A DNA stretch of 27,591 nucleotides, from IMG/VR virus record IMGVR_UViG_3300020452_000722, positions 1 to 27,591 of that record; one strand, 5' to 3'. This document shows, one piece after another, positions 6,474 to 15,415 of this stretch; positions within the stretch are counted from its first letter, which is position 1; every line of letters begins with the position of its first letter. The notes under the pieces are model-generated. The model did not search any database and was not told the origin of the DNA. It saw only the letters and a program-made list of their open reading frames with translations. The stretch is from a virus. Both the position numbers and the translations under genes were made by a program.

Positions 6474-6709
6474 GAAAACCCCCAATGACTGATGTGAATG
6501 ACAGAAAAGGATTGTATGTAGAAGTACGAAACAATGATGTCACACGAGCACTTAGAAAATTAAAAAAGTTAATGAACAACGAAGGTATGATCAAAGACAT
6601 GAGAAAAAATGAATACTTTGAGAAACCTAGTGCTAAGAATAGAAGAGAAAAAGCACAAGCTCGTAAACGTTGGTTAAAAGAAGTTGAAAAAAATAAAGAT
6701 AATTGGTAA
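6470..6709 (+). CDS. rpsU: Ribosomal protein bS21
   Basis: 79 residues with a typical bS21 core: V-E-V-R-N-N-D-V-T-R-A-L-R-K-L-K-K, E-G-M-I-K-D-M-R-K-N-E-Y-F-E-K-P-S, then a basic tail (N-R-R-E-K-A-Q-A-R-K-R-W). bS21 sits on the 30S platform beside the anti-Shine-Dalgarno end of 16S rRNA and helps mRNA binding. ATG 6470 follows GAGG with good spacing; the frame open from 6410 lies inside infC. The ATGA overlap couples it to IF3. Phage-encoded bS21 is known from pelagiphages; the pairing with IF3 is notable. Confidence 0.92.
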   Translation: MRKPPMTDVNDRKGLYVEVRNNDVTRALRKLKKLMNNEGMIKDMRKNEYFEKPSAKNRREKAQARKRWLKEVEKNKDNW

Positions 6710-6715
6710 AAAAGG

Positions 6716-6744
6716 TTGACAAACGAGTCAATCAGTATTATATT
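6716..6744 (+). promoter_or_regulatory. Sigma70-type promoter of the structured RNA
   Basis: TTGACA at 6716-6721, a 17-base spacer and TATATT at 6739-6744, starting 7 bases after the bS21 stop. The expected +1 is near 6751, at the start of the structured RNA. Confidence 0.8.
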
Positions 6745-6749
6745 AAGTA

Positions 6750-7126
6750 TTAATAAGGCGACGGTCTTGTTAGAGTAGTGCAAGGAAATGTGTCTGACCA
6801 AGAGGCATAACTTGATTGCTTAGGCGTGGTAGCCAGGTTCAAAGTCTAGCGACTGAGAATCACATCGCTCTCCCGAGCGGAAGTAAGTTCCAGGAGTCAA
6901 TGAGAATGGTATCTCGGTCGACCTGGTTGGAGGTGAAACCCAAGCCCTCCCTACTCATTATAACGTGTCGTGCGATTGGGCACAGACAGACCATACTGAT
7001 AAGAACATATGTGAGAGACAAGAAATACACATAAGTACAAAACAAACCCGATAAGAAGACGGGAAACGATATACAAGAAAAGGGTAGCTACTTAATAAGC
7101 TCGTTAGGGACCACGGTTAGTCCCTA
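6750..7126 (+). ncRNA. Structured non-coding RNA of unknown class (about 375 nt)
   Basis: Between the promoter at 6716 and the hsp20 leader there is no credible gene but many helices. CCAGGT 6833-6838 pairs with 6921-6926; GACTGAGA 6851-6858 with TCTCGGTC 6912-6919 (8 bp, one G-U); CGCTC 6866-6870 with 6875-6879; GGAGG 6929-6933 with 6946-6950; TGTC-GTGC 6966-6973 with 6980-6988 (one bulged A); TATGTG 7008-7013 with 7028-7033; CCCG 7047-7050 with 7060-7063; TAGGGAC 7105-7111 with 7120-7126. The first two nest around the third. I searched by eye for RNase P, 6S, SRP, group I intron and tmRNA signatures and found none. It could be a free RNA, or the long leader of hsp20; the separate late promoter at 7128 favours a free RNA ending near 7126. 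Confidence 0.7.
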
Positions 7127-7127
7127 G

Positions 7128-7134
7128 ATAAATA
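7128..7134 (+). promoter_or_regulatory. T4-type late promoter of hsp20
   Basis: ATAAATA just after the last hairpin of the structured RNA. The expected start near 7140 gives a leader of about 57 bases with a GTAGA...TCTAC hairpin (7140-7162) before the hsp20 ribosome binding site. Confidence 0.5.
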
Positions 7135-7196
7135 AAAGTGTAGATGCCAAATATGGGTCTACTTACATTAATCTTGCTTAATAAAGGAGATAGCAA

Positions 7197-7634
7197 ATGA
7201 ATAGATTAACAACCCTCGACATCAATAAATTAACCCCCTATGCAGTAGGATTCGACAGAGTTTTCGATAACATGTTTAACTACATCGAACATCAAACATC
7301 CAGCACAGGCGGATATCCTCCCTACAACATTGTTAGAAACGGTGAAAAGTTTCAAATTGAAATAGCACTAGCAGGTGTTAAGAAAGAAGATCTGACAATT
7401 ACTGTAGCAGAAGGTGTGCTTACTATTGAACACGACACCAAAGACGGTGACGTAGAAAGTAACTCATTTGAATGGCTACACAAAGGTATTGCTCAGAGAA
7501 AGTTCAAAAGAAACTTTACACTAAGTGATGACATTATTGTACAAGGTTCACGAATGGAAAACGGAATGCTCTATATTGAACTAGAGCGAATCGTTCCAGA
7601 GGAAAAGAAACCAAAAACAATCGCTATCAAATAA
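7197..7634 (+). CDS. hsp20: Small heat shock protein Hsp20 (alpha-crystallin family)
   Basis: 145 residues, the usual length for IbpA-type small heat shock proteins. The alpha-crystallin domain covers about 42-135, with Y-P-P-Y-N-I-V, then I-E-I-A-L-A-G-V-K-K-E-D-L and G-M-L-Y-I-E-L-E-R, and the C-terminal I-x-I anchor is present as I-A-I near the end. Such proteins hold unfolding proteins as an ATP-independent chaperone; T4-like cyanophages carry related genes. A strong AGGAG precedes the ATG. A G/C-rich hairpin follows the stop, and ClpS is next. Confidence 0.92.
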   Translation: MNRLTTLDINKLTPYAVGFDRVFDNMFNYIEHQTSSTGGYPPYNIVRNGEKFQIEIALAGVKKEDLTITVAEGVLTIEHDTKDGDVESNSFEWLHKGIAQRKFKRNFTLSDDIIVQGSRMENGMLYIELERIVPEEKKPKTIAIK

Positions 7635-13273: not shown

Positions 13274-13826
13274 TGAACTTAAAGCTCACGATAACTTTTT
13301 ACTAAGTTTACCACACATGCACGATAACAATTTTCGTAATAGCATTGTTTATCTTAACAAACATGATGGAGATGGAGCAAACGGGTGGGTTATTAATAAA
13401 GAGTTAGAATCAAGAGTTACAACAAGATTAAGAAAAAGTATACAGTTAGGAATTGTTTGTCCAATTTATTATGGCGGACCAGTTGACGTAACTCAAGTAT
13501 ATGTGTTACACTCAGATGATAAACACATTCAAAATAATACTATAACACTGAATGAAAATTTGTGTATGACCAGAGACAAGATGATGATTAATATGCTTAA
13601 CAACAACGAATTTCCAAAGTTTTGGAGAGTAATGGTAGGAAGTTGCAGTTGGGGAGCAGGGCAACTAGAATCAGAATTATTGGGTAGTAGAACAGGCGGA
13701 AGAAGTATGTGGAATATATTACCGTATTGTAAAGACCTTATGTGGAATATAAATCCACAACAACAATGGGATCATGGGATTAAACAAGTTGCAACTATGA
13801 TGACCAAGAGTTATTTAAATTTTTAA
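13263..13826 (+). CDS. YqgE/AlgH family protein
   Basis: 187 residues matching the UPF0301/DUF179 family over its length: F-L-L-S-L-P-H-M-H-D-N-N-F-R-N-S-I-V-Y-L, D-G-A-N-G-W-V-I-N-K, then Y-Y-G-G-P-V and the late A-G-Q-L-E-S-E-L block. I use the TTG at 13263 because the family needs about ten residues before F-L-L-S-L-P and no ATG is available. The family is widespread in proteobacteria and has no settled biochemical role, though some members are called transcription regulators. Its occurrence in a phage is unusual. The last base of its stop codon is the first base of tRNA-Trp. Confidence 0.85.
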   Translation: MESNELKAHDNFLLSLPHMHDNNFRNSIVYLNKHDGDGANGWVINKELESRVTTRLRKSIQLGIVCPIYYGGPVDVTQVYVLHSDDKHIQNNTITLNENLCMTRDKMMINMLNNNEFPKFWRVMVGSCSWGAGQLESELLGSRTGGRSMWNILPYCKDLMWNINPQQQWDHGIKQVATMMTKSYLNF

Positions 13827-14389: not shown

Positions 14390-14577
14390 TGGATATAGTT
14401 TGGGTTTTAATGTTGAGTGTTTGTAGCACAAATCAGTGTGTTACTCAAACTATTTCTTCATATCAAAATGAAGAACAATGCCTAGTAATTAAAAATGAAC
14501 ATGAAACAATACCACCAGATGGTTATTGGAAAAGTATAAATTATATATGCAAACCAGAAAATAGTATAAAAATTTAG
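14389..14577 (+). CDS. Small Cys-containing exported protein (62 aa)
   Basis: A hydrophobic start (M-D-I-V-W-V-L-M-L-S-V-C) precedes a region with spaced cysteines (12, 17, 31, 53) that could form two disulfides outside the cytoplasm. The layout resembles DUF1482-type small phage proteins, but the match is loose. The tmRNA promoter begins 2 bases after its stop. Confidence 0.55.
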   Translation: MDIVWVLMLSVCSTNQCVTQTISSYQNEEQCLVIKNEHETIPPDGYWKSINYICKPENSIKI

Positions 14578-14578
14578 G

Positions 14579-14609
14579 TTGACAAGTAAGACATTTTGCT
14601 TTATAAATA
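14579..14609 (+). promoter_or_regulatory. Hybrid early/late promoter of the tmRNA gene
   Basis: TTGACA at 14579-14584, a 17-base spacer and TATAAATA at 14602-14609. The last box works both as a -10 hexamer (TATAAA) and as a perfect T4 late-promoter box, so tmRNA could be made through the whole infection. Confidence 0.75.
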
Positions 14610-14882
14610 TAACTTGTAAACGTTGAAGCAACGTGAACGCATACTGGACCCGGGGGCGGTACCCGGCGCCTCCACCAAAATACTTTTAAGACGAGAGTCT
14701 TTTTATGGGGGCGAACTAGGATCGACAGGTGTTGTAGTGAAGTGGAGTTTACCGGATGACTGCGTTATTGGTCAAACTTTATAATTGCAAATGACAATTA
14801 TGCGCCAGAAATGGCAATGGCGGCCTAATTAGGCTTTCCGGGGTTGGCAACTGACCTAGCAACAGAATAGTTGCACTTTTAA
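14610..14882 (+). ncRNA. ssrA: Circularly permuted (two-piece) tmRNA
   Basis: The alphaproteobacterial permuted order is clear. First comes the acceptor piece, with T stem CCGGG/CCCGG (14650-14666), acceptor strand CGCCTCC 14667-14673, then A and CCA (14675-14677). A 29-base spacer contains hairpin AAGAC-GAGA-GTCTT. The coding piece begins with GGGGGCG 14707-14713, which pairs with CGCCTCC and places a G-U wobble at position 3, the alanine identity element. The tag reading frame at 14787-14828 encodes ANDNYAPEMAMAA and a stop. A GCAAC/GTTGC hairpin with TTTT (14859-14880) ends the gene. tmRNA with SmpB frees stalled ribosomes and tags the nascent chain for proteolysis. Processing of the spacer must rely on host RNases. 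Confidence 0.95.
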
Positions 14883-14902
14883 TTGTAAACTAAGGATAGA
14901 AT

Positions 14903-15415
14903 ATGTATAAAGTAACTGCCTACTTTAGAGATTATAAGGTTGTACAAAAGTTTTATAATCTTTATGATGCAATAGATTTTAGAGATAGTGCAGATGCAAA
15001 CTACCCTAAAGAAGTAAAATTTGAAAAGGTTAAAGATATGAGAGAATGGATATATAGTTGCTGGAATCATGTTATGAATGCAGAAGTTAACCCTTTACGA
15101 AACATTCCAGATCTAAGCACACGACATATGATTATGCAGGTACTAGCATGGATGTGGTGCATTGCTTTTGCAATTATTGTAGGTAGCTATACTGTTTTTG
15201 CAATAAGTGCCATTGCACACGTTGTATTAATAGGAGCAATAGTAGTTACAGTTGGTACTTTCAAAGTTGCAGAATACAAGCCCCAAGCATTTGAATTTGT
15301 AAAAGGATACAATTCCTATGGTAGGGGAAGAAATTCTGTGTACTATAGAGATGAAAAAGGTAATGCAGTTAAAGTAGAATTACCAAAAGGTGACCCTGGC
15401 GGAGAGCATGAATAA
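14903..15415 (+). CDS. Membrane protein with two spans (170 aa)
   Basis: AAGGA precedes the ATG. A soluble N-terminal part (about 1-70) is followed by two hydrophobic helices (about 77-98 and 101-122) and a hydrophilic, Gly/Arg/Lys-rich C-terminus. Both termini probably lie on the cytoplasmic side. No family recognised. It lies between tmRNA and the oxygenase gene, whose late promoter overlaps its stop. Confidence 0.65.
   Translation: MYKVTAYFRDYKVVQKFYNLYDAIDFRDSADANYPKEVKFEKVKDMREWIYSCWNHVMNAEVNPLRNIPDLSTRHMIMQVLAWMWCIAFAIIVGSYTVFAISAIAHVVLIGAIVVTVGTFKVAEYKPQAFEFVKGYNSYGRGRNSVYYRDEKGNAVKVELPKGDPGGEHE

Follow-up and report, generated by a model that had tools for sequence, protein, structure and literature searches.

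A divergent manA RNA and an undescribed structured element form a promoter-led non-coding stretch upstream of hsp20 in a T4-like phage contig

The locus and the leader of hsp20

The window analysed in this study is a 27,591-base IMG/VR virus contig, the gene content of which is that of a T4-like phage. At the locus under consideration the genes for IF-3 and ribosomal protein S21 are followed by a non-coding stretch and then by the genes for hsp20, ClpS and IMP dehydrogenase/GMP reductase (Pfam assignments), and all features of this locus described below are located on the plus strand. The stretch is headed by a sigma70 promoter, TTGACA-N17-TATATT (6716..6744), which scores 11/12, is kept in the relatives L015 and L018 and has a predicted transcription start at approximately 6751. 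An earlier note, made from the sequence, had proposed a consensus promoter ahead of a stretch containing no gene, and both proposals were borne out: scores of at least 11 were obtained in just 10 of 4,720 control windows, and no conserved gene was identified within 6751-7126, where the 72-aa and 61-aa ORFs overlap conserved helices and where relatives carry indels at these ORFs with lengths that are not multiples of three.

The folding energy of 6750-7128 was calculated as −109.8 kcal/mol, compared to −93.6 ± 6.3 kcal/mol in shuffled sequences (z −2.57; 2 of 100 shuffles were equally good). The 8-bp helix (6851-6858/6912-6919) to which the same note had drawn attention can form in the window and is largely retained among close relatives, but it competes with the consensus helices of the manA RNA described below, and it was rejected as a core helix because it is lost in divergent copies (L015 and Mosig).

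The hsp20 gene (7197..7634), encoding a small heat-shock protein (Pfam PF00011, E 2.8e-17), is preceded by a T4-type late-promoter-like sequence, GATAAATA (7127..7134), conserved as NATAAATA. The latter is found 14-16 nt upstream of the core of ROSE hairpin I in 46 of 63 related loci, against a background of 0.02 per 40 nt, in agreement with the earlier suggestion of a late promoter for hsp20 past the last hairpin; given this position, late transcripts would begin at the thermometer. This predicted ROSE-type RNA thermometer (7138..7202; RF02523, 35.3 bits, E 1.4e-5) consists of hairpin I, GUAGAUGCC..GGGUCUAC, followed by UUGCU paired with the AAGGAG ribosome-binding site. Its scores in the window lie below the gathering scores (ROSE_3, 35.3 against 43; ROSE, 21.8 against 45). 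Hairpin I displays 31 double changes in the covariation test, for which the comparison figure is 8.7, and U[U/C]GCU lies opposite AGGA in all 30 aligned phage hsp20 leaders, named cyanophages and pelagiphages included. A ROSE-type element upstream of hsp20 appears to be general in marine T4-like phages (L002-L076, L318, L320-L322, L324 and L325), and the literature searched, coverage of which was incomplete, yielded no mention of ROSE elements in marine phages. In L010, L018 and relatives ROSE and hsp20 are separated by a small ORF, phasin-like as judged by eye, which the thermometer would then control too. The presence of this motif ahead of hsp20 in marine T4-like phages provides a testable case of temperature control of a phage gene.

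Elsewhere in the window, a permuted tmRNA of the alphaproteobacterial type is present at 14575-14919 (alpha_tmRNA, 152 bits; tag ANDNYAPEMAMAA), within which a late-promoter-like TATAAATA occurs at 14602, and a tRNA-Trp is located at 13826.

The manA RNA of the 5' part and its distribution

The manA motif, a riboswitch candidate since 2010, has so far lacked an explanation. Nucleotides 6751..6960, which begin at the predicted transcription start, constitute a divergent, full-length manA RNA (Rfam RF01745), identified in a permissive Rfam scan of 6650-7220 with 58.9 bits, above the gathering score of 55.2 (E 1.7e-14), and a match spanning positions 1-192 of the 192-position model. In the window this RNA was missed by default cmscan and by an Rfam search of the whole record; these misses are false negatives of the fast speed filter, which overlooks divergent manA copies, and the stretch could for this reason look undescribed. 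It is therefore wrong to say of 6751-6960 that no known RNA can be recognised in it, and the label 'undescribed' must be withdrawn for the 5' 210 nt while it is retained for the 3' 46 nt, here termed element X, which has no Rfam match. With a threshold of E ≤ 10, the permissive check returned just manA, ROSE and one chance-level match, and no GOLLD, ROOL or IMES. BLAST comparison of the region with phages yielded one match, the manA of Mosig, which is located upstream of rubrerythrin.

The conserved 5' sequence of manA is GGGaGUGaCUGAAUAA; the window reads AGAGUAGUGCAAGGAAAUG and has thus kept it in parts only. When the Rfam structure was applied to 11 local copies (alignment A3), 90.5% of cells were paired and 18 pairs were changed on both sides, compared to 4.7 in shuffles and 2-5 when the structure was slid, the covariance model employed being one that omits a pseudoknot which the published consensus depicts as possible. 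These closer copies were used since MAFFT did not align very divergent manA copies well enough for pairs to be counted.

A survey of viral contigs resulted in 96 validated canonical copies of manA, the downstream genes of which (named by eye) include gp32 (approximately 20), transaldolase/talC (approximately 8) and hsp20 (6), with HAD-type phosphatases, capsid-like and mannose-isomerase-like genes as other neighbours, likewise assigned by eye and not by family search. A sigma70 promoter of at least 11/12 ends no more than 10 nt from manA in 76 of the 92 copies that had enough upstream sequence for this test (controls, 10 of 4,720 windows), which supports the earlier view of a structured RNA with its own promoter and extends it to manA RNAs of other viral contigs. 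An intrinsic terminator follows within 130 nt of manA in 15 of 96 cases, compared to 3 of 354 controls, and these include four cyanophage-like contigs in which hsp20 is the next gene; in L113 the order is promoter, manA, terminator, ROSE and hsp20. No record that matched manA had more than one copy of it (16 of 16 and 13 of 13 such records), counts which represent lower bounds as many of the records are fragments. Most copies sit 5-140 nt from a start codon, and manA lies upstream of hsp20 in the cyanophage-like contigs and in the window, where X, the late promoter and ROSE are situated between the two. Since a promoter would be expected at the head of a riboswitch leader as well, the single copy and the unrelated neighbours provide the stronger argument for a unit of its own, and copy number, neighbours and promoters together argue that manA is an RNA gene in its own right in phages.

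In the window the manA RNA is followed by a variable linker (6961..7080) that carries small hairpins and GATAAGA motifs at 6998-7005 and 7050-7057. In the manA-X linkers of the window and related loci this motif was observed at 6.9 per kb, compared to a background of 0.19 per kb (approximately 36-fold), and it is often placed in hairpin loops.

Element X in phages and in SAR11

Element X (7081..7126, 46 nt) is present as a sole copy in the window (model R1, 66.4 bits, E 1.2e-17). It comprises an H-type pseudoknot, in which 7081-7082/7091-7092 crosses 7086-7089/7098-7101, and a 7-bp hairpin (7105-7111/7120-7126) with the loop CACGGUUA, both displaying covariation. When 75 viral contigs that carry a related hsp20 were compared, the block 7081-7126 proved to be conserved, and it is also present without manA. 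A pattern search of viral contigs located X at more than 100 places, and both helices form in 84 of 118 among the matches listed. In 49 distinct copies (alignment A1) 98.7% of cells were paired, a level that is partly due to selection as these sequences were chosen for the two helices, and 205 cells were changed on both sides, compared to 50.5 in shuffles and 13-28 when the structure was slid. The pseudoknot pair 1-12, which was outside this selection, was AU in 22 copies, CG in 12, GC in 8, UA in 3 and other in 4. The loop bases UAAUA and CANGGUUA (with one variable base) are invariant, and the acceptance of G-U pairs on the plus strand points to an RNA. Of the GC hairpin and U-run that define an intrinsic terminator, X in the window possesses the hairpin, which is followed by GAUAAAUAAAAG in place of a U-run; U-runs do follow X in some other loci. 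Neither the window copy of X nor the copies at eight other loci gave an Rfam match, and no description of X was found in the literature searched, the coverage of which was incomplete.

By R1, one copy of X occurs in each of eight viral contigs of 59-203 kb, and among 50 hsp20-phage records 44 contain a single X and none contains two; here too the counts are lower bounds, since many of the records are fragments. A small contig, L302, is the sole one in which two copies were seen (204-249 and 667-712). The sites vary: X is located 3' of genes that are gp32-like, transporter-like or code for membrane proteins, upstream of genes for the clamp loader (all named by eye) and, in L199, between two tRNA genes, and it often lies 0-25 nt past a stop codon, is situated between convergent genes and is followed by T-runs. 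In G007, G407 and G415 manA and X are far apart, and they are thus separate modules that are joined in the window. No convincing X was found in the isolates P-SSM3, Syn33, P-RSM1, S-CRM01, S-SCSM1 and DSL-LC03, or in HTVC008M, HTVC115P, Mosig and phage C48C1; methylophage Melnitz contains one match of 37 bits. T4 rnaC/rnaD were rejected as relatives of X, as T4 has no confident X match (best E 0.81).

A strict X pattern applied to 84,980 bacterial and archaeal genomes produced a single match, in a Pelagibacteraceae MAG, and with R1 the element was detected in 23 of the 52 genomes searched from that SAR11 family. In 22 of the 52 there is one copy, located 3' of a sfuC-like gene for an Fe(III)-binding protein, with 21 genomes having one closely similar X sequence 3' of the same gene, and in the MAG it is found 3' of a similar gene fragment; a T-run (TTTTT) follows X in the SAR11 loci and in the MAG. 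In L341 and L357 the gene 5' of X codes for a solute-binding protein and is preceded by a Fur-family gene (Pfam for L357). The gene beside X in SAR11 resembles sfuC, a name which may by this resemblance apply to these loci; in P. ubique, sfuC is induced 16-fold under iron limitation (PMC2864753). X-like matches of approximately 40 bits were also observed in three alphaproteobacterial genomes (L362-L364, near 1501-1546), where they coincide with the beginning of an ORF for a putative outer-membrane protein. SAR11 bacteria are likely to be the hosts of X-bearing phages. Judged by its sequence, X is an uncatalogued RNA structure common to abundant marine phages and SAR11, and it offers a concrete handle on phage-host interaction at the RNA level in the ocean's most abundant bacteria.

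Interpretation and relation to known RNAs

The stretch combines a known orphan RNA, manA, with the undescribed element X and has a promoter of its own. We consider, with a probability of roughly 0.55, that it represents one phage non-coding unit, a free-standing early RNA composed of manA and X, and that hsp20 is expressed separately. Early in infection host RNA polymerase would initiate at the consensus promoter, and the product, approximately 375 nt in total, would consist of the manA-family RNA, a short linker and X as its 3' end; hsp20 would be expressed at a later stage as a separate transcript, from the late promoter that precedes it and under the control of the ROSE thermometer. The likely mechanism is that of a trans-acting RNA, in which the manA part would supply a folded domain with conserved unpaired bases, while X would mark or protect the 3' end and present its two invariant, exposed loops (UAAUA and CANGGUUA) to a protein or RNA partner. 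The free-standing nature suggested in the earlier note is therefore favoured over a riboswitch leader of hsp20, in view of the single copy per genome, the unrelated neighbouring genes, the promoters and the late promoter and ROSE element that hsp20 itself possesses, though this is short of proof: since X in the window is without a U-run, the end at 7126 is presumptive and the transcript could continue into hsp20.

A cis-acting leader, in which manA would be the riboswitch-like 5' UTR of an early hsp20 transcript and X part of the expression platform or an intercistronic stability element, is consistent with the cis-regulatory classification of manA by Rfam and by Weinberg et al. 2010 (PMC2864571), where ibpA chaperones downstream of manA were already noted, with the position of manA ahead of hsp20 in the window and in cyanophage-like contigs, and with the short distance of most copies from a start codon. 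We nevertheless deem it unlikely, given that manA occurs once per genome ahead of unrelated genes, that hsp20 is equipped with a late promoter and a thermometer of its own, that X and not a start codon follows manA in the window lineage, and that a terminator separates the cyanophage-like copies from hsp20.

Compatible with the preferred reading of manA is a humbler role for X, namely that of a mere structured terminator or 3' exonuclease block with no trans function, which has a real but lesser chance of being correct: its frequent position just past stop codons and between convergent genes, the T-runs that follow it and the TTTTT after X 3' of the iron-binding-protein gene in SAR11 would all suit such a role, whereas a generic terminator would be expected to recur within a genome, X is located between tRNA genes in L199, the window copy is without a U-run, and neither the invariant loops nor the pseudoknot is needed for termination. 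As a generic repeated terminator, X is disfavoured by its single copy. That same single copy, in variable places, would fit a DNA-level signal such as a replication origin or packaging site, but the acceptance of G-U pairs on the plus strand and the occurrence of X in SAR11-family genomes too, at one fixed gene, render this very improbable. That the structure arose by chance, in an intergenic region that is simply read through, would accord with the just moderately unusual folding energy and is hardly credible in the face of the family match, the promoter conservation and the covariation counts that contradict it.

In its widest form, which we advance tentatively and rate a little short of an even chance, the proposal is that X represents a new RNA family of SAR11 and their myophages that acts in phages as a trans-acting sRNA, that manA is a stand-alone, once-per-genome early RNA, and that the two have become fused in this phage lineage. 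If manA is a phage RNA gene in its own right, this changes what experiments should look for.

The T4 stable RNAs C and D are small RNAs of the phage tRNA cluster with unknown function, and X is similar to them in that it can sit inside a tRNA cluster (L199). The candidate structured RNAs of P. ubique (Meyer et al. 2009, PMC2704228) are comparable to X as SAR11 intergenic motifs, and a sfuC-adjacent intergenic region is listed among them; in the part of that paper available to us no description of X was found, and the sfuC region, unlike X, lies by strand 5' of sfuC and has no motif there. The ROSE element of the window shares hairpin I, UYGCU opposite AGGA and a downstream hsp20 with known ROSE thermometers (RF02523/RF00435), including the short ROSE-like elements at Pseudomonas ibpA (PMC3669281), from which it differs in its marine phage setting and its score below the gathering threshold; it would form part of the hsp20 transcript, apart from the manA/X RNA. 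With the manA motif (RF01745, PMC2864571) the 5' part has in common a full-length model match, the same helices, a marine T4-like phage setting and an ibpA/hsp20 neighbourhood, while it is distinguished from known manA RNAs by its divergence, by its being missed by default filters and by the element X that follows it. In contrast to the view of manA as a gene-specific riboswitch, the present survey suggests a single-copy transcription unit.
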